Of a stretch of DNA of 45,425 nucleotides, positions 4,899-32,101 are shown piece after piece. How positions within the stretch are numbered: the first letter of the stretch is position 1; every line of letters starts with the position of its first letter. The position numbers were made by a program, and so were the translations under genes. Below the pieces are notes generated by a model that was given only the letters and a program-made list of their open reading frames with translations, searched no databases and had not been told where the DNA came from. The stretch is from positions 1 to 45,425 of IMG/VR virus record IMGVR_UViG_3300023223_000914. The stretch is one strand, 5' to 3'. Source of the DNA: a virus.

Positions 4899-5173
4899 TC
4901 ATCGGCTCCTATCACATCTAATAGCCATTTGGAAAGTTGGAGAATATGCCTACGATCCAAAATTACTGCATTGAAGCTCTCGGCCCCATCTACACTTAGA
5001 CCTATGCATTTTGAACCGTGACAACCACCTACTTCGATTGTCAGCTCTCCTATTTTAATTTTGTCTGGCGTAATAACATCTATTTTGTGTGGTATTGATA
5101 CGACATTTCTTGCCGGCGCGAAACTGCAGATATACCGGCCAAGTTTCAGTAAGAACTTTTCACGTTTGTTCAT
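4895..5173 (-). CDS. Hypothetical protein in replication operon
   Basis: A 92-residue protein starting MNKREKFLLKLGRYICSF, with a basic N-terminal helix and a beta-rich middle (IKIGELTIEVGGCHGSKCIGLSV region), ending in a helix (HILQLSKWLLDVIG). No family recognised. Its first codons resemble those of the next small gene (MNKRE), a hint of a local duplication of the start region. It is coupled by ATGA to the PrimPol-helicase gene upstream and to the 49-codon gene downstream. Confidence 0.6.
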   Translation of the reverse strand: MNKREKFLLKLGRYICSFAPARNVVSIPHKIDVITPDKIKIGELTIEVGGCHGSKCIGLSVDGAESFNAVILDRRHILQLSKWLLDVIGADE

Positions 5174-7614: not shown

Positions 7615-7783
7615 CCAGCACACTCCGTTCAATGACATCTTCAAGGCTTTGACTGTAAATACGGATGCACTTACGACCTAGCCTTATGGCTTTAAGGTCT
7701 CCGCGTTCAATCATGTTGTAGATTTGCTTGCGGGTTACATTTAATCGTTCTGCAGCTTCTATAGGCTTTAGAAATTCGGACAT
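7601..7783 (-). CDS. Excisionase/MerR-type HTH DNA-binding protein
   Basis: A 60-residue protein that is almost entirely one winged helix-turn-helix domain of the excisionase (HTH_17) type: FLKPIEAAERLNVTRKQIYN carries the helix-turn-helix and IERGDLKAIRLGRKCIRI the wing. It is the first gene of the leftward replication operon and overlaps the PrimPol gene. An AGGA lies nine bases before ATG 7783. The upstream promoter is covered by an inverted repeat, so it could be an autoregulator or bind the iteron region as a replication accessory factor. Those roles are inferred from position; a recombination-directionality role is less likely as no integrase is seen. Confidence 0.8.
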   Translation of the reverse strand: MSEFLKPIEAAERLNVTRKQIYNMIERGDLKAIRLGRKCIRIYSQSLEDVIERSVLDATR

Positions 7784-18457: not shown

Positions 18458-19777
18458 ATGCGCCATAATCATAAACTTATCCCTGGTCCTCAGCGTAATA
18501 AACCCAGCAAAGAGGCAGGTGTTTCGGGTACGCCTATCTTTGGTGGGTATATCGATGATGGCGAAAAGAACCCGAAACTAACTAATGATAATCGATACCG
18601 AACAGCTGCTGATATACTGGCTAATATCTCAGTGGTGGCGGCCAGTGTCCGATATTTTCTTAATTTACTTGCCAATCCTAAATGGACAGTGGCTCCCTCA
18701 GATGAAGACAATCCTGCAGCTGTTGAGGCTGCAAAGTTCGTAGAGGATGTTATTGATAACCTTACCGATAGTTGGACGCGTATCATACGTCGTTCAGGCA
18801 TGTATAAATTTCACGGGTTCAGTATACAAGAGTGGACGTCCATCCGTCGTAAGGATGGACGTACAGGTTATGCCAGCGTGGAGTCAAGGCCACAGCATAC
18901 GATAGAAAGATGGGAAACTGAGGAAAACGGGACAGTATGGGCTGTATGGCAACGTTCGCCACAAACCAGTGAAGAGTTGTTGATAGAGCGTTGGAAGTTC
19001 GTATATATGGTGGATGATACCCTAACTGATAGCCCTGAGGGGATGGGATGGTTTCGTCATCTTGCAGAGCCCTCATTTCGGCTTAAGGATTATTTAACCT
19101 TAGAGAAAGTGGGCTTTGAGCGTGACTTAGCGGGAGTGCCTATTGGCAAGGCCCCCATTACTGGATTGAATCGCGCTGTAAAGGCAGGAACGATGTCTAA
19201 AGCTGATGCCAATACGATGCTTGATGGTCTCAAGAATTTCGTCAAGTTGGAGATTAAGAAAGAGAATACAGGCATGGTGCTTGATTCTCAGCCATTTGAA
19301 AATCAGACAGCAGATGGCGCAACAGCCTCCGGTGTGAATCAATGGGGCATTGAGCTATTAACGGGTGACCCAGGCAGCATTGCAGAGCTTGGTGCTGCTA
19401 TTCAACGCATTAACGTAGAGATGGCGCGTATTGTTGGTACCGAGAATATTTTTACTGGATCAGATGGTAGCGGGTCTTTAGCCCTATCTAAGGATAAATC
19501 GACTAACTTGTATCTAAACGTAAACTCTACACTCGATGAGATGGCAGAGCAGTATACGAAAGACTTTATTGGCCCGTTGTGGATGCTTAATGGCTTTGAC
19601 CCAGACATACGGCCTAAGTTCGTAACAGAAGACGTTTCGTTTAAAGATGCTGAGCAGATATCGCTAGCCTTGCGAGATATGGCTTCTGCCGGTGCAGTGT
19701 TAGATACTGACGATCCGGCAATTAATGATTTGCGCGATATGCTAGGTATCCCGCGCCAAGAACGACCACAAGTATGA
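18458..19777 (+). CDS. Portal protein (DUF935/Mu gp29-like)
   Basis: A 439-residue protein immediately after the terminase, where the portal belongs. It has the DUF935-type pattern: an N-terminal AADILANISVVAASVRYFLN helix, GFSIQEW, a RWKFVYMVDD stretch, then RLKDYLTLEKVGFERDLAG and a central AELGAAIQRINVEMARIVG segment, ending in a short acidic tail. The portal forms a dodecameric ring through which DNA passes and to which terminase and connectors attach. After it the usual head genes are interrupted by the glycan cassette. Its last codon overlaps an ATG (19774) that I do not take as the next start. Confidence 0.82.
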   Translation: MRHNHKLIPGPQRNKPSKEAGVSGTPIFGGYIDDGEKNPKLTNDNRYRTAADILANISVVAASVRYFLNLLANPKWTVAPSDEDNPAAVEAAKFVEDVIDNLTDSWTRIIRRSGMYKFHGFSIQEWTSIRRKDGRTGYASVESRPQHTIERWETEENGTVWAVWQRSPQTSEELLIERWKFVYMVDDTLTDSPEGMGWFRHLAEPSFRLKDYLTLEKVGFERDLAGVPIGKAPITGLNRAVKAGTMSKADANTMLDGLKNFVKLEIKKENTGMVLDSQPFENQTADGATASGVNQWGIELLTGDPGSIAELGAAIQRINVEMARIVGTENIFTGSDGSGSLALSKDKSTNLYLNVNSTLDEMAEQYTKDFIGPLWMLNGFDPDIRPKFVTEDVSFKDAEQISLALRDMASAGAVLDTDDPAINDLRDMLGIPRQERPQV

Positions 19778-19788
19778 GGAGAACTAGC

Positions 19789-20136
19789 ATGAAGTATAGG
19801 GTTATATACGTCGATATTGACGGCACACTACTGTTTTGGCCGGGTAAAAGTAAGGGCACGCCACCAAAGAAAAACGAAGAGGGATATGGCTTAAAGCCAG
19901 AAGTAAACCGACCATTGGTGGCCGCCCTAAAGGCGTGGCATAAAGATAAAAGGTTCCTAGCCTTTTGGTCGCGAGGCGGTGCGGAACATTGCCGAAATAC
20001 CGCTAAATTGTGCGGTCTAAGCCCCGATGCCTGCCTGCCAAAACCCTATGCGTGTTTTGATGATGCGCCTAGATCCGTAACCGCCGGGGACAGGAAAGGA
20101 TTTTTAGTTATAGACCCGAATTCATTCCATTGGTAG
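19789..20136 (+). CDS. HAD-superfamily phosphatase-like protein
   Basis: A 115-residue small HAD-like protein. The nucleophile motif is VDIDGTL (Asp9, Asp11), motif II is FWSRGG with its Ser, motif III Lys lies in LPKPY, and FDDAP supplies the acidic pair. Members remove phosphate from small molecules, such as sugar phosphates or nucleotides. I chose ATG 19789 with GAGGAGA eight to ten bases upstream over the ATG at 19774. It opens the glycan cassette, so a sugar-phosphate substrate is plausible, but stand-alone phage HAD proteins near terminase genes are also common. Confidence 0.7.
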   Translation: MKYRVIYVDIDGTLLFWPGKSKGTPPKKNEEGYGLKPEVNRPLVAALKAWHKDKRFLAFWSRGGAEHCRNTAKLCGLSPDACLPKPYACFDDAPRSVTAGDRKGFLVIDPNSFHW

Positions 20137-20141
20137 CGGGT

Positions 20142-20738
20142 ATGACCGGTACGACCTGGGCAATTATAGCATGCGGTTCCAGTGTACAGGCTTCAGATAT
20201 TAACCAACTTGAGGGTAGGGCACGGGTGATCGTTGTTAATGACAGTTGGCGTCTTTGCCCGTGGGCTGACGTGCTTTATGCCGCTGATCAACGTTGGTGG
20301 AAACATCATCAATACGTGCTAACCTTTAAAGGGGAGAGATGGACGCAGCAACAGGGAACCGTAGATTGGCCTGAAGAGGCCAAACTGGCAGGAATACAGG
20401 TCATACACAGCGTTAACAATCCAGGCATTTCCTTTGATCCACAACAGATACATACCGGTATGAATAGCGGCTTTCAGGCGCTTAACCTAGCAGTGCTGTG
20501 GGGCGCTACGCGTATCTTGCTGTTGGGTGTAGACATGGCAATATTAGACGGCAAGCGCCACTGGTTCGGGGACCATCCGAGAGGGCTTCACAGAAACAGC
20601 CCGTATGCTAGCTTCAGTAAAGCATTTATTTTAGCCGCGCCACAACTCAAGCGGGCGGGGATAGAAGTTATAAATTGCTCCCTTCGATCTACTCTTAATT
20701 GCTTTCCAAAAATGACCATAGCTGAGACCCTTGCATGA
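20142..20738 (+). CDS. MptE-like/DUF115-type protein, putative glycosyltransferase
   Basis: A 198-residue Rossmann-like protein. It begins WAIIACGSSV, has VNDSWRLCPWADVLYAAD, then the strongest signature HTGMNSGFQALNLAVLWG followed by RILLLGVDM and a downstream HWFGDHP. This SG-x-A-x-x-A...GAxxIxLxGxDM arrangement is that of MptE/DUF115 and Maf-type flagellin glycosyltransferases, and occurs in many phage proteins. A relative lies at 29471-30025. I prefer ATG 20142; the TTG at 20130 sits inside the HAD gene. Donor and acceptor are unknown. It overlaps the next gene by four bases. Confidence 0.65.
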   Translation: MTGTTWAIIACGSSVQASDINQLEGRARVIVVNDSWRLCPWADVLYAADQRWWKHHQYVLTFKGERWTQQQGTVDWPEEAKLAGIQVIHSVNNPGISFDPQQIHTGMNSGFQALNLAVLWGATRILLLGVDMAILDGKRHWFGDHPRGLHRNSPYASFSKAFILAAPQLKRAGIEVINCSLRSTLNCFPKMTIAETLA

Positions 20739-21481
20739 AGGTTGCCAACATCTTGCTACACCATTCACCGCACTATCGTTTACAGGTTTTTACAGCAGGG
20801 CTCCAGACTCACGGGTATCGTGTAGTCAAAGATCGTAACACTCAACCTGATGCTGACGATCTGTTGTTGATTTGGAATAGAAGTCCAGGTGATGAGCGGA
20901 TTGCTAAAAAATATGAGGCAGCGGGTGCCACAATCCTGGTGACTGAGAACGGGTATATCGGCAAGACTAAAGCGTTGGCTAAAACACATCATGCCGGCGC
21001 CGGCGAGTGGTATGTCGGAGAGCACGACCGATGGGCCGAAACCGGTATACCGGTATCACCCTGGCGTGAAGACGGTGATCACCTACTTATTTTACCCCAG
21101 CGCAGTATCGGTGAGATAGGCGTTGCTATGCCTCGTAACTGGGAGCTTCTGATACTTAACCGTTTAAAGCGTATAACCAACCGCCCCCTTCACATACGCA
21201 AGCATCCTGGAAAGAATCCGACAAAGCCACTAGAAGACGATTTACGTAATGCCTGGGCAGCGGTAACCTGGGCAAGCGGGGCAGGCATTAAAGCGATATG
21301 TGCCGGCATTCCCGTGTTCCATGATCTTAAAGATTGGATTGGGGCGCCGGCCGCAACCTGTACTTATGATATCGAGAATCCTTACCTTGGGGACCGTTCG
21401 GCTATGCTACATCGGTTAGCGTGGGCGCAATGGACCTGGGAGGAAATAGCGGATGGGACAGCCTTTAAACGGCTACTGTAA
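20735..21481 (+). CDS. KpsS-like glycosyltransferase-fold protein, copy 1
   Basis: A 248-residue protein, first of three tandem paralogues. The C-terminal half has SPWREDGDHLLILPQRS, LHIRKHPGKNP, WASGAGIKAICAGIPVFHD and WAQWTWEEIADGT, which resembles the GT-B-like domain of capsule enzymes of the KpsS/KpsC type and related CDP-glycerol transferases. This copy has KHPG where the other two have RPKP, so it may use a different ligand. The N-terminal half is a Rossmann-like region. ATGA overlap with the MptE-like gene. A glycan or glycerol-phosphate transfer role is inferred. Confidence 0.6.
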   Translation: MKVANILLHHSPHYRLQVFTAGLQTHGYRVVKDRNTQPDADDLLLIWNRSPGDERIAKKYEAAGATILVTENGYIGKTKALAKTHHAGAGEWYVGEHDRWAETGIPVSPWREDGDHLLILPQRSIGEIGVAMPRNWELLILNRLKRITNRPLHIRKHPGKNPTKPLEDDLRNAWAAVTWASGAGIKAICAGIPVFHDLKDWIGAPAATCTYDIENPYLGDRSAMLHRLAWAQWTWEEIADGTAFKRLL

Positions 21482-21491
21482 GAGGTGTGAT

Positions 21492-21728
21492 ATGCCAGCT
21501 GTAGAGATATATGAAGCTCTTGTTCTAAAAGAAGAATGGGAGAAAGTAAAGAAAGGGGACAAAGAGGCTATAACTAAAATGCGTGCTGAATTTGACGGAA
21601 TGGAACTGTATTTCCATATTCTATCATGGGATGTGCTTAGAAAAGATACGGAGAGTGTATCTCTATCTGAGCTATGTGATAAACGTATTATCGAAACGGT
21701 AACACTGACGGCGTACAGTGAATCCTGA
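21492..21728 (+). CDS. Hypothetical small protein within glycan cassette
   Basis: A 78-residue acidic protein (start MPAVEIYEALVLKEEWEKVK), probably alpha/beta and soluble. I chose ATG 21492 with GAGGTG upstream rather than the frame from 21453 that runs inside the preceding gene. It overlaps the next gene by one base (TGATG). No family recognised. Confidence 0.5.
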   Translation: MPAVEIYEALVLKEEWEKVKKGDKEAITKMRAEFDGMELYFHILSWDVLRKDTESVSLSELCDKRIIETVTLTAYSES

Positions 21729-22570
21729 TGGCTACTGTAGACGTATTTTTTGCAGGGGGAAACAGGCGGTCACGGACTATAGCCGATGCCGCGTATAAGG
21801 GCCTGCGGGCTGTGGGGGATAAGCCGCGTATATTGGATTCCACTTTGTATAACGGTGTACGCAGTGATTATGCTGTATTCTATGGGTTGGCTTGTGGCCT
21901 AGATAAAATATTCGAAGACTATAAAGCTAATGCAACGGCGATTTATGTCGATTTGGGCTACTGGCGACGTCGTATTAGCTCTCGCTACGACGGCTATCAT
22001 AAAATGTCTATAAACTCCCGTCATCCTACCGCATACTTTCAGAACCATAAGCATGATCCTCAGCGGTTCAAAGACCTAAGGCTGTCCGTCAAGCCCTGGA
22101 AAGAAACGGGTGAAGTCATTTTAATAGCGGGTATGTCTCAAAAGGCGGCCAGGGCTGAGGGGTTAAATCACCAGGCCTGGGAGCGGGCAGCGTTAGCATC
22201 CATACAAGCTAAGAGTAAGCGTCTTGTTATATACCGTCCTAAGCCCAACTGTATGCGGTCATACCCCCTGCAGGGTGCACGGTTCGACAAAAAGACGCCT
22301 TTGGCTGCCATGTTTAGTAATTGCCATGCTTTAGTAACAAGGCAGTCTAATACGGCGGTAGATGCTTTGCTTGCCGGCATACCCGTTTTTTGTGAGTTGG
22401 GCCCTGCCTCAGTCATGGGACAAAGTGACTTAAGTAAGATCGAGTCGCCGATTTATCCGGAAGACAGACAGCGATTTGTTGAAGATATTGCTTGGTGCCA
22501 GTTTAAAACAGCTGAGATCGCCGCAGGGTTGCCTTTCCGTCACTTTAAAGAAGAGGGTCTAATACCGTGA
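21728..22570 (+). CDS. KpsS-like glycosyltransferase-fold protein, copy 2
   Basis: A 280-residue paralogue of 20735-21481 and especially of 22567-23394. It carries KPWKETGEVILIAGMS, LVIYRPKPN, SNCHALVTRQSNTAVDALLA then GIPVF, and an end IAWCQFKTAEIAAGLPF. The RPKP loop and the CHA-V-T-x-x-SN-x-x-x-x-A motif are those of capsule-type transferases where they bind the nucleotide donor. The N-terminal GGNRRSRTIADAAYKGLRA is Rossmann-like. Coupled to neighbours by overlapping codons. Confidence 0.62.
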   Translation: MATVDVFFAGGNRRSRTIADAAYKGLRAVGDKPRILDSTLYNGVRSDYAVFYGLACGLDKIFEDYKANATAIYVDLGYWRRRISSRYDGYHKMSINSRHPTAYFQNHKHDPQRFKDLRLSVKPWKETGEVILIAGMSQKAARAEGLNHQAWERAALASIQAKSKRLVIYRPKPNCMRSYPLQGARFDKKTPLAAMFSNCHALVTRQSNTAVDALLAGIPVFCELGPASVMGQSDLSKIESPIYPEDRQRFVEDIAWCQFKTAEIAAGLPFRHFKEEGLIP

Positions 22571-23394
22571 AGATTGCATTTTTCTCGTCTGATAAACCCC
22601 GAGAGCGCCAACTAGCGGCGGCATTTGCCAGGGGCGCACAACGTTTTAAGCATAAAGTATATATATTACGGGTGGGTGATACAGGCTACGATAAAGATTT
22701 CGATTTAGCGTGTATGGTGGGCGTAAAATCCAGGATCTTATGGCAGCAAATGCGTGTACTGGGTATACCGACGATGATGTTTGATAAAGGGTATAGCCGG
22801 CAAAAAGTGGGGGGTGGGTGGCTGTATTGGCGTATTGCTTATGATAGTCACCAGCCAACACCCCACACGTTGAACCGCCCATATAGTGACGATAGATTTA
22901 AACGGTTAAAGCTGCCTGTGTGCCCGTGGCGTGAAAAAGGCAAGCACATCCTGATAGCAGGCTCCAGTGAAAAATATCAACAGTTTTACGGGCTACCTAA
23001 CCCCACAGAGTATGCAAAGGGCTTGGTACGTAAGTTACGCCAAGATACTAGTAGACCTATCATTTATCGGCCTAAGCCAAGTTGGAGAGCAGCCGTACCT
23101 GTTGCAGGTACAGAGTTTTCGAAAAGTAGGTCATTGCTCGCTGATTTAGAGAACTGTCATGCTGTTGTTACCCATGGCTCTAATGTGTGTTATGAGGCGG
23201 CGCTTTATGGAATACCCAGCGTGATTACAGGTCAAGCGGTTATGAAGTCCGTATCGTCTACCGAACTGAGTGACATTGAGCATCCGCTAATGGGAGAGAG
23301 ATGGGGGGTCTTTAGGGCGCTAGCCTACCACCAATGGACGTTGAAGGAGATGGCCCGGGGTACCATGTTCAATACCGTTAAGGATTGGCTATGA
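22567..23394 (+). CDS. KpsS-like glycosyltransferase-fold protein, copy 3
   Basis: A 275-residue paralogue with a GTG start at 22567 that overlaps the stop of copy 2 (GTGA). Motifs: PWREKGKHILIAGSSEK, PIIYRPKPSW, LENCHAVVTHGSNVCYEAAL, GIPSV and YHQWTLKEMARGTMF. THGSN is the typical form of this motif, so this copy and copy 2 look catalytically intact. Its stop overlaps the start of the FAD oxidoreductase gene. Substrate unknown. Confidence 0.63.
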   Translation: MKIAFFSSDKPRERQLAAAFARGAQRFKHKVYILRVGDTGYDKDFDLACMVGVKSRILWQQMRVLGIPTMMFDKGYSRQKVGGGWLYWRIAYDSHQPTPHTLNRPYSDDRFKRLKLPVCPWREKGKHILIAGSSEKYQQFYGLPNPTEYAKGLVRKLRQDTSRPIIYRPKPSWRAAVPVAGTEFSKSRSLLADLENCHAVVTHGSNVCYEAALYGIPSVITGQAVMKSVSSTELSDIEHPLMGERWGVFRALAYHQWTLKEMARGTMFNTVKDWL

Positions 23395-24380
23395 GAGTAC
23401 GCATTATTGGTGCGGGCTTCTACGGTTGTCACATCGCTACAACGCTCATCGATGATGGACATGACGTGAGTATTGTTGAAGTAAAGAAAGATCTTTTCAG
23501 AGGTGCGTCGGGGAAGATACCCGCCCGTTTGCACCAGGGCTTTCACTACCCCCGGTCAAAGGCTACACGGGATGCTTGTCGGGCTCATCTACCGGAGTTT
23601 ATGGAAATATACGGTCGCTTTACTGAGTCAGTGCCAAACAATATTTACGCCATTGCCGAAGGTGGCAGTCTTGTGGATTTCCCGCAGTACGTAGACAGTT
23701 TGAGTGGTGAGGTCCCATTTGAGATAATAGACCCCAGGTCATATGGGTTAAGGAATGTTGAGGGTGCAGTGCTAACAGATGAAAGGCACATAATTATTGA
23801 TGAGGTCAAGGCATTTTTTCGAGAAAGACTGCATAAACATATAAAGTATGGTCACAAGCTTGTAGATCCTGGTGGCCGTGATTTTGATTTAACTGTAGAT
23901 GCTACATTTTGTACCTACGATAACACATTTGTAGATCGATATGAGCCTTGCGTTGTTGGATTGTTAAAGGGTCAAACGGATACAGCTATAACGATCATGG
24001 ATGGCCCTTTCAGCAGTTTATACCCCTGGAATGAAGGCAGAAACTTATGCAGCATATCCAGTGCTAAATGGACCCCTTTATCGAAGCAGTGTAGAACCTG
24101 GAGCGAAGCCAGGGCAATATTGCGGGAGCTAACATGTCGCGAGATGACAAAACGTGTTGAGGAGATGATGGAGGATTTAGCGCGTTACTATCCGGGAATT
24201 CATAGCTATGACATGCTAGATGTTATGACGTCTGTAAGGGCAATGCCTTTTTCTGGTGCTGATACACGCTTAGTGAATATCGTGGATGTCAGTGAGCGTA
24301 TCGTTCGCATCCAGGCGGGAAAGATTGACGCTGTTATTCATGCGGCAAAACTTATACAGCAAAGGTTGGAGGCGTTATGA
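23391..24380 (+). CDS. FAD-dependent oxidoreductase (DAO-like)
   Basis: A 329-residue protein beginning with a dinucleotide-binding fold: RIIGAGFYGCHIATTL (GxGxxG-type, residues 4-19) and an acidic IVEVKKD at the end of the second strand. SGKIPARLHQGFHYPRS is like the FAD-linked segment of sugar- and amine-oxidising DAO proteins found in surface-polysaccharide loci. The start is ATG 23391, overlapping the previous stop (ATGA), not the TTG at 23385. In this cassette it may modify a sugar nucleotide or sugar, but that is inference from neighbours. Confidence 0.75.
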   Translation: MRVRIIGAGFYGCHIATTLIDDGHDVSIVEVKKDLFRGASGKIPARLHQGFHYPRSKATRDACRAHLPEFMEIYGRFTESVPNNIYAIAEGGSLVDFPQYVDSLSGEVPFEIIDPRSYGLRNVEGAVLTDERHIIIDEVKAFFRERLHKHIKYGHKLVDPGGRDFDLTVDATFCTYDNTFVDRYEPCVVGLLKGQTDTAITIMDGPFSSLYPWNEGRNLCSISSAKWTPLSKQCRTWSEARAILRELTCREMTKRVEEMMEDLARYYPGIHSYDMLDVMTSVRAMPFSGADTRLVNIVDVSERIVRIQAGKIDAVIHAAKLIQQRLEAL

Positions 24381-24973
24381 AACTGGGTATAACCGGAGTT
24401 AGGAGTGCTATTACACAGGCCTTTATACCCTTATATGATGCTAATCCATCTCGTCGGGCAACGTGGTATTCACGCGCTATTCAGGATATGCCTTTAGATC
24501 TGGACGATTACTTACTATGTGCGGGGGTCTTACATGGCAAGCGTATTGGTGAGATGACAGGCTTAGAGCTCTCTGAAACGATGAGTGTTAATTTTGCCAG
24601 CATTGCCTCGTTTTGTGACCGGCTATTTGACTATAATGATAAAGCCAGGGTATGCGTTATAGGCTCTCAGTCAGGTGTTAATGGATCTTATGATATGGCC
24701 TATGCTGGCGCCAAGGCAGCGTTGCATTTATACGTTGAGACTAAAGCCCTATCCACCATCCAGCAACATTTAGTTTGTGTAGCACCAACAATTATCGAAG
24801 ATGCAGGTATGACACAACGTCGGGGAGATTTAAAGGCCAAATTGGCTGAGGGCAAATGCCGCCGTCTTAGACGATGGCTGAAGGCGGAAGAGGTTGCGCG
24901 TATAGCTTTATTTGCACTTAAAGAGCCGGCATTATGCAATACAGTGATTAACGCCTCGGGGGGCAACTGGTGA
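24377..24973 (+). CDS. Short-chain dehydrogenase/reductase
   Basis: A 198-residue compact SDR. The NAD(P)-binding turn is GITGVRSAI (short and atypical against TGxxxGIG), LLCAGVLHG stands for NAG, and the active site is SQSGVNGSYDMAYAGAK with Ser97 or Ser99, Tyr109 and Lys113. The end VINASGGNW matches the usual IDGGxxW. SDRs reduce or epimerise sugars and many other substrates. The Rossmann part is trimmed, so it may be specialised. It overlaps the oxidoreductase gene before it and the methyltransferase after it by four bases. Confidence 0.82.
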   Translation: MKLGITGVRSAITQAFIPLYDANPSRRATWYSRAIQDMPLDLDDYLLCAGVLHGKRIGEMTGLELSETMSVNFASIASFCDRLFDYNDKARVCVIGSQSGVNGSYDMAYAGAKAALHLYVETKALSTIQQHLVCVAPTIIEDAGMTQRRGDLKAKLAEGKCRRLRRWLKAEEVARIALFALKEPALCNTVINASGGNW

Positions 24974-25584
24974 TAGGACAAAAGGAAGTCCAGCGTATTG
25001 AGGCACAACGCGTGCACGCCATAATGGCGACCGGTTACGTGCCGTGTAACAGCGGTGTGGCGATTGACGGGGGAGCGCATATTGGGTCCTGGACTGTTGT
25101 GCTATCAGAATATTTTGATGAGATCTATGCCTTTGAGCCTTGTGAAAAGAGTTTTAGCATGCTGCTCAGAAATGTTGCCCTTGAATGTAATCCATTATGC
25201 CAAGTAAACACCCGGCGTAGAGCTTTAGTGGACGGTCCCTGTACAGTTGATGTCGTACAGCCCCGCCCCAAGCGTAGGGCGCTGACCGCCCGCCAAATCC
25301 GCATGGGCGGTACCGAGGTACAGGGCGTGGCAATTGACAGTCTGAATCTGTCCGGGTGTGACCTAATTAAACTCGATTTAGAGGGGGCCGAAGGTTTAGC
25401 TTTAGATGGGGCATACAGAACCATAAATAAATTCAAACCCTTTTTAGTACTCGAGTTTAACAATTTAGCATCTCAATTTGGCTATACAGAGGCGGGTATC
25501 ACAAAGGCTTTGCTGTCACATGGCTATGTTGAAGTGTGGCGGGAAGACGTTGATAGAGGGTTCGCATGCAAGCGCAAACAGTAA
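24970..25584 (+). CDS. FkbM-family SAM-dependent methyltransferase
   Basis: A 204-residue methyltransferase: motif I AIDGGAHIGSW, acidic motif II YAFEPCEKS, and the FkbM mark LIKLDLEGAEG followed by FLVLEFN. FkbM enzymes O-methylate sugars and polyketides and are frequent in phage and bacterial glycan loci. The start is GTG 24970, sharing bases with the previous stop (GTGA). A sugar O-methylation is the likeliest reaction given its neighbours. Confidence 0.85.
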   Translation: MIGQKEVQRIEAQRVHAIMATGYVPCNSGVAIDGGAHIGSWTVVLSEYFDEIYAFEPCEKSFSMLLRNVALECNPLCQVNTRRRALVDGPCTVDVVQPRPKRRALTARQIRMGGTEVQGVAIDSLNLSGCDLIKLDLEGAEGLALDGAYRTINKFKPFLVLEFNNLASQFGYTEAGITKALLSHGYVEVWREDVDRGFACKRKQ

Positions 25585-26321
25585 TTGTGACGGGCTTTTC
25601 GGCTAAAGGTTATGACGAGTATGGACGTCGTTTTCTGCAGACTTTTGAACAATATAATAATGGGTATCCTTTACACGTTTACACGGAAGATATACCACTG
25701 ATAGGGGGTTTTGCTGCTGATGTAAAACAATATTCACAAAGCGATATCCCAGGTTTAGACAATTTCTTAGCATCATCAGTGGGCGTCCCTGTTCAGAAGG
25801 GCAAAGAGAATAACGGGCATTGGCGGCCAAAAGAGATTAAAGCCGGCTATTCGTACCGTTTTGACGCTTACAAGTTCTGCAAGATGGTTTACACAATGCA
25901 GGCTGCCGCGCAGCGTATCGGCAATGGGTATATGGTGTGGCTTGACGGTGACACGGTTATTCGTCAGGCTATCCCTAAAGACCTAGTCAAAAAGTCATTG
26001 TCAGATAATAGCGACTTTGCTTATTTAGGCCGTGAGCCAAAGCACACTGAAACCGGATACTTGGTTTTCAAACTGCCTGAGGCAATGCCGTTACTGGACA
26101 GATGGGTTGAGTTTTATAGGAGCAGATCTTTCTTAATGCAGAATGAGTGGCACTCCGCTTATCTATTTGATCGCGCTCGTGAACTTCGCCCAGAGATAAA
26201 AGGCCACAACCTGACGCCGGGTGGTCGCGGCCATGTGATTCATAAGTGTTGGGTGGGCGATATTTTTGATCATCAGAAGGGCGCTCGCAAAGGTATGGCA
26301 AAGAGTCCAGAGGCTAAGTAA
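25566..26321 (+). CDS. GT-A-type glycosyltransferase-like protein
   Basis: A 251-residue protein whose middle holds MVWLDGDTVI with a DGD triplet (127-129), the metal/nucleotide-sugar site of GT-A transferases. It is followed by SDFAYLGREPKHTETGYLVF and a late RGHVIHKCWVGD. The C-terminus is basic. It overlaps the FkbM gene by 19 bases and the following GT gene by one. The pair of GT-A genes probably act on the same glycan. Confidence 0.65.
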   Translation: MQAQTVIVTGFSAKGYDEYGRRFLQTFEQYNNGYPLHVYTEDIPLIGGFAADVKQYSQSDIPGLDNFLASSVGVPVQKGKENNGHWRPKEIKAGYSYRFDAYKFCKMVYTMQAAAQRIGNGYMVWLDGDTVIRQAIPKDLVKKSLSDNSDFAYLGREPKHTETGYLVFKLPEAMPLLDRWVEFYRSRSFLMQNEWHSAYLFDRARELRPEIKGHNLTPGGRGHVIHKCWVGDIFDHQKGARKGMAKSPEAK

Positions 26322-27043
26322 TGTTACAAGTGTTTATTGGATATGATGCCAGGGAATATGAAGCCTTTGACGTTGCACGTAAATCATTAGCCATGCATAA
26401 CTATAATTATAACTATCTGTATTACAGCTCTGTCAATAAAATTTGCATAAGGGATTGTCGTAAAGAAGGGTTATATTACCGACCAACCTCTATGCGAGAT
26501 GGACAGCTATACGATGATATATCGCAGGCTCCGATGGCAACAGAGTTTGCCTTGACACGCTTTTTGGTGCCGGAGCTGGCAGGTGATTCAGATGATCGAT
26601 GGGCATTGTTCATGGATTGTGACGTATTGGTTCGCTGTGACATCCTGGATATCATGAAACACGCGGACAGCAAATATGCTGTGATGTGTGTGAAGCATGA
26701 TATTGACCATGGTACAGGGACTAAAATGCGTGGTTACAAACAGACACAATATGCACGTAAAAATTGGTCTTCAGTTATGCTGTGGAATCTGGATCATCCC
26801 GCCAATAAACGCTTAACAGTCGAGCATGTCAACACTTGCAAGGGCCTTTGGTTACACCAGTTATCCTGGCTAGAAGACCATGAAATAGGAAAGCTACCCT
26901 ACGAGTGGAACCATTTGGTGGGGTTGTTGCCAGAAAACGAAAATGCTAAAATCGTGCATTATACGCTGGGCACCCCCAATTTGGCGGGGTATGAGGATTG
27001 CGAGTACTCGAATGAATGGAAAGTTGAATTTAAGCGTTTTTAG
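26321..27043 (+). CDS. GT-A glycosyltransferase, GT8-like
   Basis: A 240-residue protein with VFIGYDAREYEAFDVARKSL at the start, the DxD site ALFMDCDVLVR (Asp99, Asp101) and a C-terminal AKIVHYTLGTPNL, the pattern of retaining GT8-like transferases that use UDP-sugars. It also has SSVMLWNLDHP, where the conserved N-x-G/N-D region sits in relatives. It closes the glycan block; a 12-base gap separates it from the next structural gene. Confidence 0.78.
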   Translation: MLQVFIGYDAREYEAFDVARKSLAMHNYNYNYLYYSSVNKICIRDCRKEGLYYRPTSMRDGQLYDDISQAPMATEFALTRFLVPELAGDSDDRWALFMDCDVLVRCDILDIMKHADSKYAVMCVKHDIDHGTGTKMRGYKQTQYARKNWSSVMLWNLDHPANKRLTVEHVNTCKGLWLHQLSWLEDHEIGKLPYEWNHLVGLLPENENAKIVHYTLGTPNLAGYEDCEYSNEWKVEFKRF

Positions 27044-27055
27044 TGGGGATACACC

Positions 27056-27316
27056 ATGGCCAGTACTGTTAAGCATCAGCCTAGTACTTCTGAATACATC
27101 TTAGTGATCAGCGGCACAACGAATGAATTCCTGCTCCAAAACGTCAGCACAGGTAATACGGCAGTGTATATCGTGTGGGCGGCAGCTCTGCCTGTCGGCA
27201 GCACTATAGGGCATCTATTACGACCAGGTGACGGGTTAACGCGTAACAGCTTAACAGGACAAGTTTTTGCTCGTGCCCTTACCGCTGACGCTATTGTTGC
27301 TGCGACAGAGGAATAG
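27056..27316 (+). CDS. Small virion-like beta protein
   Basis: An 86-residue protein rich in Ser, Thr and hydrophobic strands (YILVISGTTNEFLLQNVST, then VYIVWAAALPVG). It resembles small phage decoration or fibre-base proteins. No firm family. It is followed five bases later by the larger beta protein. Confidence 0.5.
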   Translation: MASTVKHQPSTSEYILVISGTTNEFLLQNVSTGNTAVYIVWAAALPVGSTIGHLLRPGDGLTRNSLTGQVFARALTADAIVAATEE

Positions 27317-27320
27317 TGTC

Positions 27321-28229
27321 ATGGCCAGGAGAAAGGAACGTAGAGGTTTTAGGCTGGTTAATGCTGTAGGCGGCACGGCTGCCGGTGGCGGTGGTGTGGA
27401 TGGTATCTTAGAGGGTGGCGCCGATAACTTCGAATCACCTGCCGTCAATAATTCTACCACACGTGGTACCACTTTAACGGCAGGATCTGCGAACACTAAA
27501 GGGTCGTTTGTAGAGTTAGATGCCTCTACGGCTTTCGCCGCTATAGGTGTTATTGTTTACGCTCAAGACTTTAGCGCTAGCAATCAAAGGCATCTTATAG
27601 ACATAGCTACCGGTGCGGCTGCCAGTGAGACGGTTGTTATTCCTAATGTCTTTTATGGTTCTCCCTCAACTTCGTCAGCCAGTCACCCTGCCCCCGTATT
27701 TTTGCCCATTGCCGTTGCCGCCGGGGCACGCATATCTGCCCGCACTCAGTCGGAGGACGGGTCGGCCACAATTGATGTCAGCATAACGTTGGTAGGCAGT
27801 ACAACGAGCACAGCTACACCCTCTGCACTTATTCGTGACTACGGTCCTGATACCTCAACAACATTACTGCCAAGTAGAGACTTTGGTTCTGCAGGGTCGG
27901 AGACGGTACACGTTAAATCTGCGTGGACAGAAATAACTGCAGCGACTACTGCAGCACATGAGTTTATTGCAATCGTATTCGGTGGGTTTAATAACGGTTC
28001 AGCGACACGCCAGTTTCTCGTAGATATTGGAACTGGGGGTGCTGGGAGTGAGGTTGTATTGCTCCCAGACATGCTTGTTAGCGTGGATCACGCAACAGAC
28101 AGAATTACTGCCTATGTAGGACCGTTGCCTGTGACTATCGCCTCAGGCACCCGTCTGTCTTTTAGGGCACAAGCTGACAACGTAGAGACATCATTTAATA
28201 TTATAGATGTCGCCGTTTACGGGTTGTAA
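27321..28229 (+). CDS. Two-repeat beta-sandwich protein, putative fibre/decoration
   Basis: A 302-residue protein. A basic start (MARRKERRGFRLVNAVGG) leads to a Gly-rich linker and two similar domains. Domain 1 has LIDIATGAAASETVVIPNV then ISARTQSEDGSATIDVSIT; domain 2 has LVDIGTGGAGSEVVLLPDM then LSFRAQADNVETSFNI. The shared '(V/I)DI-TG-AxSE-VV-(I/L)P' marks an internal duplication of about 120-130 residues. No catalytic residues seen. It is likely a virion surface or fibre component. I chose ATG 27321 with GAGGAA upstream. Confidence 0.6.
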   Translation: MARRKERRGFRLVNAVGGTAAGGGGVDGILEGGADNFESPAVNNSTTRGTTLTAGSANTKGSFVELDASTAFAAIGVIVYAQDFSASNQRHLIDIATGAAASETVVIPNVFYGSPSTSSASHPAPVFLPIAVAAGARISARTQSEDGSATIDVSITLVGSTTSTATPSALIRDYGPDTSTTLLPSRDFGSAGSETVHVKSAWTEITAATTAAHEFIAIVFGGFNNGSATRQFLVDIGTGGAGSEVVLLPDMLVSVDHATDRITAYVGPLPVTIASGTRLSFRAQADNVETSFNIIDVAVYGL

Positions 28230-28231
28230 AT

Positions 28232-28918
28232 ATGAAAAATTATGAATTAGCATTGATTTGTAAAGACGCATATAAATTCAGTACTTTTTCTAAATGCGAT
28301 GTAGAAGTGTTGGTTAAGTATTACGATAATTTATGTGTTATTGCTGTGCGGGGGACTGAGGCCCGTGATCTATGGACACAACGCGATAACTTTCGATGGC
28401 GTGACATGCTTAAGCGTAAGCAATGGAAGAACTGGTTTGGCGGCATAACGGATATAGCCAGAGACTTAATGGCCTGGCCTAAATATTCGCCAGAGCTCAA
28501 TGCTTACTTTCACGCGGGGTTCTTAAAAGGTGCAGAGCATGCCCGTGACGAGATTCTATCCGGAAAGTACGATATTACAAAGCTCACACCGCTGATTATC
28601 ACCGGACACAGTCTAGGGGGTGGAATAGCTCTGCCTTTGGCCTTGTTGCTGAAAAAGGAACGTGCAGAGGTGCAATCATGCGTGGTATTTGGCTGCCCCC
28701 GGGCTGTCCGCAAAAACTCAGAATTTGTTTTTAAAGACCTGCACGTGGCAAGCTATCGTTATGGTAATGATTTCGTAACTACTGTACCTAAAAGAGGTTG
28801 GGGATACAGTCACCCCGTGCCTTTACTTCAATTAGGCAATAGTACCGGCAGAAAGCCGAATTGGAGTGATCATTCTATTGACCTGTACATATCGGCATTA
28901 AAACCAAAGAGTAAATGA
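28232..28918 (+). CDS. Class 3 lipase-like alpha/beta hydrolase
   Basis: A 228-residue hydrolase of the fungal-type lipase (Lipase_3) family. The nucleophile elbow is GHSLGG (Ser127), after VIAVRGT (the oxyanion-side strand); Asp180 in YGNDFVTTVP and His214 in WSDHSID complete the triad. No signal peptide. It could hydrolyse host lipid or an acyl ester on a surface polymer during entry or exit, or deacylate LPS. Placement between two virion-protein genes suggests it may be packaged. It starts two bases after the preceding stop. Confidence 0.85.
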   Translation: MKNYELALICKDAYKFSTFSKCDVEVLVKYYDNLCVIAVRGTEARDLWTQRDNFRWRDMLKRKQWKNWFGGITDIARDLMAWPKYSPELNAYFHAGFLKGAEHARDEILSGKYDITKLTPLIITGHSLGGGIALPLALLLKKERAEVQSCVVFGCPRAVRKNSEFVFKDLHVASYRYGNDFVTTVPKRGWGYSHPVPLLQLGNSTGRKPNWSDHSIDLYISALKPKSK

Positions 28919-28919
28919 T

Positions 28920-29471
28920 ATGGCTACAGTAACAATCGGCAGTACTGAATATACAGTATACTCAGACGTAGCCACGGCAAATACCTATTTTAACGGCTCT
29001 ACTCAGTTCACAGACTGGGACCCGTTTACTGATGACGAGAAGTCACGCGGCCTTGTGTCATCTACTCGCTTAATTGAAAGACAGCAATGGCTGGGTGAAG
29101 TTGAAGTCGAGGGACAAGCCCTTGCTTTTCCCCGTACAGGCTTAAACGATTGCCAGGGTGATACAGTAACTGCTGCTGAGTCCCTGGTTATAGCTACCGA
29201 AGCCAGCCAGCTTCTTGCGCTTGATATTTTAGAGGGTGATGATGTTGAAACAAACATCTCTACTGAAGACTTAACTAAACGTTTAAAAGCCGGCTCTGTT
29301 GAGATTGAGAATTTTAGGGCGCAACTGGGAACAAGCACACGTTTTTCTCTCGATGTTATGGAATTGATAGGTTGTTTTCTGGCAGGCAGTTCTGCCATAG
29401 CCGGCAGCATTTCCACTGGTACCGACGGTGAAGCGCTTGATGATGACCTTTCTTTAAATCGGGGTTTTTAA
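28920..29471 (+). CDS. Head-tail connector, DnaT-like (putative)
   Basis: A 183-residue protein starting MATVTIGSTEYTVYSDVATA, with helices and the segment RLIERQQWLGEVEVEGQALA then FPRTGL. That short 'W-x-G-x-x-x...L-x-F-P-R' sequence is typical of the adaptor family often labelled DnaT-like in phage head-completion genes. It would attach to the portal. It overlaps the next gene by one base. Confidence 0.6.
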   Translation: MATVTIGSTEYTVYSDVATANTYFNGSTQFTDWDPFTDDEKSRGLVSSTRLIERQQWLGEVEVEGQALAFPRTGLNDCQGDTVTAAESLVIATEASQLLALDILEGDDVETNISTEDLTKRLKAGSVEIENFRAQLGTSTRFSLDVMELIGCFLAGSSAIAGSISTGTDGEALDDDLSLNRGF

Positions 29472-30025
29472 TGCGCGTAGCTCTAGTACTTGGCGGGGCG
29501 GACACACTGCAGGATGACTTAAAAAGAGCATGCGCAATGTGCTCTCCGGATACGCTGATTGCAACCAATAACGCGGGCCGAGATCTATCTGGAGTGTTAC
29601 CTCACTGGGTAACATTGCACACCGAAAAAATGCCTATTTGGATGGCAGAACGTAAAGCAGCTGGACACCCTGACGCTGAACAATTCTGGACTTCGAATAC
29701 TAAAACCATACCCGTTGAGCATGAAGGTTTATACAACCACGTGCCGACCTGGGACGGGTCCTCAGGGTTGTTGGCTATTACAGTGGCATTACATCTAGGG
29801 TATGAACGGGTAATACTGTGCGGTGTGCCTATGGATAAAAAGGCTAACCATTATGATGATGATCAGCCCTGGATGGATGCGCCACGCTATCGTGCTGCAT
29901 GGACACGCCACCTGTCAGAAATGAAAGGTAAAGTTAAGAGCTTTACGGGCTGGACTTCTCTTATATTAGGTGAACCGACGCAGGCATGGGTAAATGGCCA
30001 AGAGTCAAAAGCAAATACTAATTGA
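29471..30025 (+). CDS. MptE-like protein, second copy outside the glycan block
   Basis: A 184-residue Rossmann-like protein: VALVLGGADTLQDDLKRA, an ATNNAG strand end, then WDGSSGLLAITVALHLGYER and VILCGVPMDKKANHY. The SG...A...LG...ILCGxPM pattern matches the MptE/DUF115 type seen at 20142-20738, but overall similarity is low. It lies between connector genes and overlaps the head protein gene by 32 bases. It may add to the same glycan pathway. Confidence 0.6.
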   Translation: MRVALVLGGADTLQDDLKRACAMCSPDTLIATNNAGRDLSGVLPHWVTLHTEKMPIWMAERKAAGHPDAEQFWTSNTKTIPVEHEGLYNHVPTWDGSSGLLAITVALHLGYERVILCGVPMDKKANHYDDDQPWMDAPRYRAAWTRHLSEMKGKVKSFTGWTSLILGEPTQAWVNGQESKANTN

Positions 30026-30950
30026 TCAACTGAGCAAAGAGGAGCGCCAGATTCGCGAGGCGTTCTTACTGTTTATTGAAACTGTTAATTCCGATACCGT
30101 AATCAAGCAGATAAATGCTTTTCTTACGGCTGGAGATATTAACGGGGCATTAAACATAGTTGACACGCATGTCATTCGAATGTCGACGGTACTCCCCCGT
30201 GTGTTTCAGGACGTAGGCCAGGCGGAAACCGCCTCATTAGCTGCTGGGTTAGGTGCGGCAGGTGTTGGGGTATCATTCGATCCGACAGACATACAATCCG
30301 CTAACTTAATGCGTAACAGCCGCTTAGAGTTCATTCGTGAAACAACTGAGGCCCAGCGTGCTGCAACACGTCAGGCCTTAACGCGGGCATTTGAGACCGG
30401 TCAAGGGCCCCGTCAAACGGCTACAGCCTTTCGTGATAGTCTTGGTTTGACGGCTAAGCAAGAGCAGGCTGTAGTAAACTACCGTAGCCTACTTGAATCA
30501 AATGATCGACAAGCTCTTAGCCGTGACCTGCGAGACAGGCGTTTTGATAGAACTGTTGAGCGTGCGTTTTCAGAAGATCAACCCTTAACCAAGACTCAGA
30601 TTGATCGTATGGTGGATCGGTACCGTGAGAGGGCCGTACAGTTCCGGAGTGAGGTTGTAGCCAGGACCGAAGGAGTTCGAACTACCAGTTTAGCTCGTGA
30701 CCAGGCATTACGTCAGACTATCGATGATGTGGGTATACCGATTGAAGATGTTCAGCGCACCTGGAACCGTATTTCAGACGGTCGCCAGCGTGATGCTCAC
30801 GATGTTATGCAGGGGCAAACAGTAGGGCTGGATGAACGTTTTATCGACGGTGACGGCAATGAATTACGCTTTCCCGGGGACCCCCAGGCGCCTATTAAGA
30901 CAACGGCGCAATGCCGCTGCTTTATAACAGTGAAATTTACTAATCGTTAG
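29994..30950 (+). CDS. Minor head/head morphogenesis protein (Mu gpF-like)
   Basis: A 318-residue protein. The C-terminal third has VVARTEGVRTTSLARDQAL, then RTWNRISDGRQRDAHDVM, GQTV, and a CRC close (TTAQCRCFI), the signature of the phage Mu gpF/SPP1 gp7 family. These proteins bind portal and DNA in the head and may be injected. The N-terminal two-thirds are helical. It is the last rightward gene before the leftward island; its TAG overlaps the stop of the opposing gene. Confidence 0.87.
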   Translation: MAKSQKQILIDQLSKEERQIREAFLLFIETVNSDTVIKQINAFLTAGDINGALNIVDTHVIRMSTVLPRVFQDVGQAETASLAAGLGAAGVGVSFDPTDIQSANLMRNSRLEFIRETTEAQRAATRQALTRAFETGQGPRQTATAFRDSLGLTAKQEQAVVNYRSLLESNDRQALSRDLRDRRFDRTVERAFSEDQPLTKTQIDRMVDRYRERAVQFRSEVVARTEGVRTTSLARDQALRQTIDDVGIPIEDVQRTWNRISDGRQRDAHDVMQGQTVGLDERFIDGDGNELRFPGDPQAPIKTTAQCRCFITVKFTNR

Positions 30951-31267: not shown

Positions 31268-32101
31268 TTAGATTGCAACCGGTGCTTGGATGCCTGGGTA
31301 CGGATCATAGCCCTTGAGTTTGAAGTCCTCAAAATTATAACCGTAGATAGAATCAGGTTTTCTTTTAATCGTTAGCTTAGGCAAAACCCGTGGCTTACGA
31401 CAGAGTTGCAACTGTACTTGATCCGTGTGATTAAGGTATATGTGGCTATCTCCGATGCTGATAACGATTTCGCCTAGTTCCAGGTCACATTGTTGTGCCA
31501 GCATGTGAGTCAATAGCGCCACGCTGGCAGTATTATAAGGCAGGCCAAGCAGCGAGTCAGAACTACGAATATACACCTGTGTTGATAGCCTATTGTCAAC
31601 AACATAAAATTGATACAGCACGTGGCAGGGTGGTAGGGACATTTTGCCTTGTCTTACATTTGCGTGTGGGGAGAATTTCTCATTTGGGAGGTATTCGACA
31701 TTCCAGCCAGAAAACAGAATACGGCGGCTGTTAGGATTGTTCTTAAGGCAGTCGATTACGTAGTCAATCTGGTTAATTGTCTTACCGTATTTAGTAGGCC
31801 AGGCTGTCCACTGCTTGCCGTAGATAGGACCAAGATCACCATCTTCTAGCGCCCATCCGTTCCAAATAGACACACCGTGTTCTTTCAGCCAAGTGTTGTT
31901 AGTGTTACCACTTAAAAACCAAATCAGTTCGTTAGCGATACTTTTAAAGTGGAGTTTCTTGGTGGTCAGCAGCGGAAAGCCTTCGTTTAAGTCATGTCTG
32001 AATTGGCGTCCAAATACTGAGAGGGTACCGGTGCCTGTCCTATCGCCTTTTACTGTACCGTTTTTGAGAATGTCTTTTAATAAGTCTAAATATATTTTCA
32101 T
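31268..32101 (-). CDS. thyA: Thymidylate synthase (ThyA)
   Basis: A 277-residue enzyme that makes dTMP from dUMP with methylene-tetrahydrofolate. The N-terminal [20 protein letters not shown] is the phosphate-binding loop, [15 protein letters not shown] and GPIYGKQW follow, the catalytic cysteine is in [12 protein letters not shown], and [15 protein letters not shown] binds dUMP. The usual QRSxD is IRSSD, and LPFN is LPYN, mild departures. It complements the dUTPase at 9953-10675, which makes dUMP. It sits in the leftward island with a lipoprotein gene three bases upstream of its start. Confidence 0.95.

Follow-up and report, generated by a model that had tools for sequence, protein, structure and literature searches.

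The window analysed here, the whole 45,425-base virus record IMGVR_UViG_3300023223_000914, encodes primase, terminase, portal, major head and tape-measure genes. Between the portal on one side and head genes on the other it carries eleven open reading frames (ORFs; g01 to g11, 19774-27043, all on the + strand), which are co-directional and translationally coupled and for which a role as a glycan pathway is well supported. An earlier note on this DNA had described an eleven-gene cassette with overlapping starts, and both points hold: all ORFs are present on the + strand at these coordinates, and neighbouring ORFs from the portal through g11 share 1-29 nucleotides (nt), with the single exception of g01 and g02, which are separated by 5 nt. 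The portal (18458..19777, +, phrog_113) overlaps by 4 nt a small HAD-type phosphatase-like accessory ORF (g01, 19774..20136, its start being 19774 or 19789), followed by an MptE/Maf_flag10-like and GT42-sialyltransferase-like gene (g02, 20142..20738). Then come three KpsS-like paralogues (g03, 20735..21481; g05, 21728..22570; g06, 22567..23394), the first two of which enclose a 91-amino-acid (aa) ORF with no assigned family and no Pfam or PHROG match (g04, 21453..21728). The remainder comprises a flavin adenine dinucleotide (FAD) oxidoreductase used as the module marker (g07, 23391..24380), a short-chain dehydrogenase/reductase (SDR; g08, 24377..24973), an FkbM-type methyltransferase forming a variable part of the module (g09, 24970..25584) and two glycosyltransferase (GT) A-like proteins (g10, 25566..26321; g11, 26321..27043), of which g11 is GT8-related (phrog_28018) and widespread in phages. 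The cassette matches the window around it in base composition (about 45-49% GC), so nothing points to the recent insertion of foreign DNA. A simple promoter and terminator scan found sites no more numerous than in shuffled sequences, so that no transcription unit can be called.

The whole region gave no megablast match to phages, and single-sequence scans with g05 against viral contigs and with g07 against genomes found no relatives. A pattern-based scan with the g07 alignment, whose counts are lower bounds, returned at least 49 viral loci and at least 3 contigs of metagenome-assembled genomes (MAGs) among 84,980 prokaryote genomes; with loci found through g11 included, 59 loci carry g07 (44 clusters at 90% identity), nearly all of them viral. 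By tblastn, g07 was not found in 50,697 phage records or in plasmids. The closest lineage (L088, L089, L091, L095 and L137) has the order portal-g02-g03-g05-small ORF-g06-g07-g08-g09-g10-adaptor-MptE2-head morphogenesis, MptE2 being a second MptE-like gene, and is devoid of the HAD gene, g11 and the lipase gene. Distant loci read MptE-(three KpsS-like)-(methyltransferase)-FAD-SDR-(FkbM)-GTA-GTA. Of the 34 distinct loci whose upstream sequence is long enough, 26 have at least three KpsS-like genes, and g10 lies downstream in 34/37 distinct loci. Such an order, recurring in dozens of divergent loci, excludes chance, and the coherent glycan pathway that the earlier note had proposed agrees with the finding that relatives carry these genes as one block and not scattered. 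Pairwise distances of g07 correlate with those of other module genes (Mantel r 0.30-0.56), a correlation which cannot separate co-inheritance from shared phage ancestry. A MAG contig assigned to the archaeon Candidatus Methanoperedens (L093) holds the full cassette together with homologues of the portal and head-morphogenesis genes; it comes either from a phage that was binned wrongly or from a tailed virus of archaea.

In unrelated phage backgrounds the block is found close to virion genes. In the lineage of the window, and in some twelve other loci (L009, L093, L106, L107, L111, L116, L120, L135 and others), it lies between portal/adaptor and head morphogenesis; in L113, L114, L124, L127, L131 and L136 it comes immediately after an HK97-type major head protein (phrog_10), on the 3' side. 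It is near the terminase in L098, L099 and L108, preceding a phrog_9 terminase in the first two, and near tail genes in L105, L119, L134 and L027, with a tail-collar protein nearby in L016. The window has TerL of phrog_38 and a major head protein of phrog_1005, as against TerL of phrog_9 in L136 and L108. The earlier note had left virion proteins and the host surface both open as targets, and the occurrence of the block among head and tail genes of unrelated backgrounds favours the virion.

The three KpsS-like proteins have no Pfam or PHROG match, and their profiles found no relative by sequence in the PDB. For g05, a predicted model with a predicted local distance difference test score (pLDDT) of 96 gave fifteen best structural matches that were all KpsC, WbbB or KrkA (Z 14.6 to 10.8; best values 14.6, 13.0 and 11.0, respectively, with the first unrelated protein at 10.2), at a root-mean-square deviation of 4-5 Å over 230-245 residues for the beta-Kdo (3-deoxy-D-manno-octulosonic acid) transferases. 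The model thus places g05 in the modified GT-B fold of retaining beta-Kdo transferases (GT99/GT107/GT140), and g03 and g06 would share this fold by homology. In the comparison with capsule transferases that the earlier note had suggested as a check, the predicted structure matched KpsC best and did not point to a non-transferase fold. The trio forms three separate orthologue groups, and the order g03-g05-g06 upstream of g07 is kept in all 35 loci with three KpsS-like genes (not deduplicated; five have an extra g06), which indicates an old stable arrangement and not a recent tandem duplication. When the g05 model was compared with BFVD, the algal virus Tetraselmis virus 1 was seen to have several such folds (TM up to 0.75), some of them annotated as capsule polysaccharide biosynthesis proteins.

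The MptE-like label of g02 stands in part: the protein matches phrog_4603 'alpha-2,3-sialyltransferase' at 4.8e-43 but falls below the gathering score of PF01973 (MptE-like; 17.3 bits vs 34.6). Its profile match to the GT42 sialyltransferase CstII is weak (E 0.0074) and does not align the catalytic His. It has a weakly scoring Maf_flag10 core motif (NSG..A..LA..G...I.L.G.DM) and an N-terminal GPS motif. Maf_flag10 (PF01973), which is CstII-like, is the central domain of Maf, a protein that puts CMP (cytidine monophosphate)-ulosonic acids, Kdo included, on flagellin Ser/Thr (PMC11339370).

The labels given earlier to g07, g08 and g09 all exceed Pfam cut-offs (PF01266, 3.5e-7; PF00106, 4.4e-8; PF05050, 5.7e-11). 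In g07 the DAO match (30.5 bits against a cut-off of 27.9) includes GxGxxG, and a predicted model (pLDDT 92.8) has Z of about 25 to glycine oxidase, a Bordetella DAO protein (3dme) and glycerol-3-phosphate dehydrogenase (GlpD), with the HxGxHYPRS motif aligning with HAGIYYPxxS of 3dme; on this model g07 is a DAO-fold oxidase of the glycine-oxidase/L-2-hydroxyglutarate-dehydrogenase kind. UDP (uridine diphosphate)-galactopyranose mutase was rejected as an identity for g07, since only the FAD-binding start is matched in sequence, and in structure g07 is closest to amino-acid and hydroxy-acid oxidases. The SDR catalytic residues of g08 (N72, S99, Y109 and K113, with the YxxxK pattern) are invariant in 26 sequences. 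The two genes are adjacent (under 150 nt) in 35/43 loci, and they also occur without phage genes in a Patescibacteria MAG contig (L092), among GT2/GT4/GT11-type and methyltransferase genes. Their presence on their own in this bacterial GT-rich cluster suggests sugar chemistry, and g07-g08 plausibly act as a tight pair on a sugar intermediate. Epimerising pairs of a flavoenzyme and an SDR are known, e.g. DprE1/DprE2.

Among the other members, g10 and g11 retain a DxD motif (D127 and D129 in g10). The only PDB match of g10, to a capsid GT of the chlorovirus PBCV-1, was not significant (E 0.063), and g11 has at least 591 related stretches in scanned viral contigs, so that g11 alone is common and no marker for the module. 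The HAD-type motifs of g01 (DIDGT / S / K / DD) are legible in its sequence; Pfam, PHROG and NCBIfam scans gave no family match, and a single distant homologue was seen among the cassette loci, in L132 beside g07. For g04 there was no homologue in these loci. The HAD gene and the small gene that the earlier note had counted as cassette members are therefore present in the window but are not core in relatives. Close relatives carry an ORF of about 92-95 aa between g05 and g06 (L088:1444-1728, L089:3412-3696, L091:3485-3760), to which g04, lying between g03 and g05, showed no sequence relation.

A link to Kdo comes from relatives. In L098 and L047, kdsB-kdsA lie directly before g03, with about 5 and 10 nt, respectively, between the KdsA stop and the g03 ATG, and both genes are within the GT islands of L074/L076 and of cyanophage S-SCSM2R, in the latter near a g11 homologue; L118 has kdsA only and L042 kdsB only. 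KdsA of cassette relatives passes NCBIfam equivalog cut-offs, and the KdsB-like proteins score best with CMP-Kdo synthetase models, yet below cut-offs. The window has no recognisable kdsA or kdsB, and neither was found in a comparison set of 84 loci (including 4 ThyA loci), which are close relatives of Pelagibacter phage Mosig with a GT island nearby and hence a poor control for KpsS-like genes. The presence of kdsA/kdsB in some relatives points to CMP-Kdo, a donor made already by Gram-negative hosts; the earlier proposal of a host-supplied donor agrees with this, with the modification that some relatives encode the synthesis themselves.

Taken together, we lean, with modest confidence, towards glycosylation of the virion, probably of the head, with a glycan containing Kdo or another ulosonic acid and with CMP-Kdo from the host. 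We favour the virion because the cassette is translationally coupled to the portal, lies near head and tail genes, and has no clear membrane segment in any of its proteins. From the gene set we infer the donor, the target, late expression and the order of steps. The cassette would be a phage glycosylation module expressed late, whose soluble GTs (g02, g03, g05, g06, g10 and g11) may assemble a short, acidic glycan on structural proteins of the phage, probably those of the head. At least g02/g03 would draw on an ulosonic acid activated with CMP, such as CMP-Kdo; its source would be the lipopolysaccharide (LPS) pathway of the Gram-negative host or, for some relatives, KdsA/KdsB of the phage. By analogy, g07 would oxidise and g08 re-reduce one sugar carbon, with net epimerisation, and the glycan may be capped through O-methylation by FkbM or, in relatives, by other methyltransferases. 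For linkage to protein the strongest candidate is the Maf-like g02, with a structural protein as putative acceptor.

Several observations weigh against this interpretation. Retaining beta-Kdo transferases have a QXXXD motif with a nucleophilic Asp (PMC10148158, PMC12887879), and this motif was not found in the g03, g05 or g06 groups, the loop being located by secondary structure and not by superposed coordinates. So placed, the equivalent loop reads PQRxIG in g03, AGMSxKAA in g05 and AGSSxKYH in g06; in the g03 group Q is present in 23/29 but the +4 position is G in 28/29. The (K/R)XHP motif, which binds CMP in sialyl- and Kdo-transferases (PMC12887879), is kept in 28/29 g03 proteins, including g03 of the window, whereas the g05 and g06 groups read RPKP instead, and together with the missing nucleophile this suggests that the donor may differ. 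Further, kdsA and kdsB were each seen in only 6 of 138 cassette-related loci (not deduplicated), and in a reciprocal scan phage kdsA was common, with a KpsS-like gene nearby in 10 of 80 kdsA loci; since phage kdsA usually occurs without KpsS-like genes, kdsA alone is no predictor of the cassette. Some loci are placed elsewhere (L102 beside ribonucleotide reductase; L090, L128 and L118; the bacterial L092), and the head position could reflect only the convenience of late expression. The glycan and its acceptor, finally, are both putative. The absence of QXXXD means that the trio cannot be classified as retaining beta-Kdo transferases despite the fold and, in g03, the CMP motif; of the KpsS-like identity in the earlier note, the fold is thus backed by the g05 model and a role as ordinary Kdo transferases is not supported. 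A tentative idea, possible rather than probable in our judgement, is that the trio represents a new branch within the Kdo-transferase fold whose catalysis needs no covalent Asp intermediate, relying on another nucleophile or an inverting mechanism, and that with the DAO-type flavoenzyme/SDR epimerising pair it makes up a pathway, almost confined to phages, for decorating the capsids of tailed phages with a modified ulosonic-acid glycan.

The main rival to virion glycosylation, unlikely in our view although it deserves serious weight, is that the KpsS-like transferases alter host LPS or capsule during infection, for receptor masking or superinfection exclusion. The closest folds, KpsC, WbbB and KrkA, do act on capsule or O-antigen, and a list of auxiliary genes of marine viruses places kdsA/kdsB in LPS biosynthesis (PMC10653327). 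The bacterial GT cluster with g07-g08 fits this rival as well, but the cassette proteins include none that is clearly embedded in a membrane and none of flippase or GtrA/GtrB type, and the genes, which recur among head genes, are coupled to the portal. Serotype-conversion genes are usually separate, prophage-expressed units, which also counts against it. A further reading, which we consider quite improbable, makes the trio binding or scaffold proteins or other enzymes, and not sugar transferases, in a pathway that differs from protein glycan assembly. The lost QXXXD nucleophile and the RPKP of g05/g06 fit it, but an alternative nucleophile or inverting mechanism is possible, other polar residues of g05 are strongly conserved (R14, D75, R113, R170, S207, N208, R247, Q258 and E263), and the retention of three separate orthologue groups likewise speaks for enzymes. 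Modification of phage DNA with a sugar-decorated hypermodified base is very improbable: a ThyA homologue that might supply the modified nucleotide lies nearby (31268-32101, on the - strand, opposite to the structural genes), DNA glycosylation is known from several phages and FAD enzymes of the DAO type are found in thymine hypermodification, but none of the 138 cassette-related loci has a homologue of the window ThyA, the genes scanned include no recognisable base kinase or hydroxymethylase, and the FkbM and KpsC-fold proteins, the head-gene position and g07-g08 in a bacterial GT cluster fit glycans.

Virion glycosylation by phage GTs is already known. In mycobacteriophages Che8, Corndog and Myrna, sugars are added to proteins of the capsid and tail by GTs that the phages themselves encode (Freeman et al. 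2023, as cited in PMC12363180); the likeness lies in phage-encoded GTs for the own virion, here a putative role, and the difference in that the requirement described in that citation is for phage GTs, whereas the present block has 7-9 genes with a redox pair, a methyltransferase, and Maf/GT42-like and KpsC-fold proteins. PBCV-1 encodes most GTs building its capsid glycan (PMC11571054), but it is a eukaryotic virus and its gene set is unrelated save for the weak g10 match. Compared with KpsC (GT107), WbbB (GT99) and KrkA (GT140), with which it shares the g05 fold and, in g03, (K/R)XHP, the trio differs not only in the two motifs discussed above but also in being smaller single-module proteins with no profile-detectable sequence similarity. 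Similarly, g02 resembles Maf and CstII in its motifs and its phrog_4603 name, but it has about 200 aa, the size of the central domain, and neither reaches the PF01973 cut-off nor has an identified CstII catalytic His. Caulobacter phages CcrColossus and CcrBL9 and relatives have GT islands with g02/g03/g06/g11-like genes, side by side and directly after tail genes in CcrColossus, and Mosig has g05/g10/g11-like genes in a GT island, but these islands have no g07. Large GT islands without g07, with several KpsS-like and GT-A paralogues and in part on alternating strands, were also seen in largely marine-type contigs (L056-L081). Gene-name searches of the literature, with most subscription journals outside their coverage, found no description of the gene set.

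To our knowledge, few phage isolates have been shown to have glycosylated particles. The recurrence of the module, in order and beside head genes, across unrelated uncultured phages suggests that capsid glycosylation may be far commoner than is recognised, and a capsid glycan could affect antibody recognition, adsorption and diffusion of phages. The trio also exposes a branch of the Kdo-transferase fold without its signature catalytic residue. The Caulobacter phages with a partial set are in culture, and the question is therefore directly testable.

Downstream of g11, three ORFs (27056-28918, +) separate the cassette from the head-tail adaptor (28920-29471, +, phrog_477). The first two (27056-27316 and about 27318-28229, the latter with an internal duplication) are 21% Ser/Thr and poor in K/R, a composition that makes them possible candidates for decoration proteins or glycan acceptors; the second has no relatives in viral contigs or phage records. 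The third is a class-3 lipase within the head operon (28232-28918; PF01764, 4.4e-13), which is not present at the matching place in L088/L089. PADLOC defence models matched none of ten ORFs (g01-g08, g10 and the lipase), and the sequences do not indicate a defence role. The eleven-gene extent given in the earlier note is confirmed, yet a second MptE/sialyltransferase-like gene, MptE2 (29471..30025, +; phrog_4603, 2.2e-7), falls outside it; it overlaps the head morphogenesis gene (29994..30950, +; phrog_3517, 2.3e-79), and its homologues, near the module in 24 loci, adjoin head morphogenesis in many, even where the cassette differs. A primase/helicase-like gene (5170-7644) is, like ThyA, on the - strand, opposite to the structural genes.

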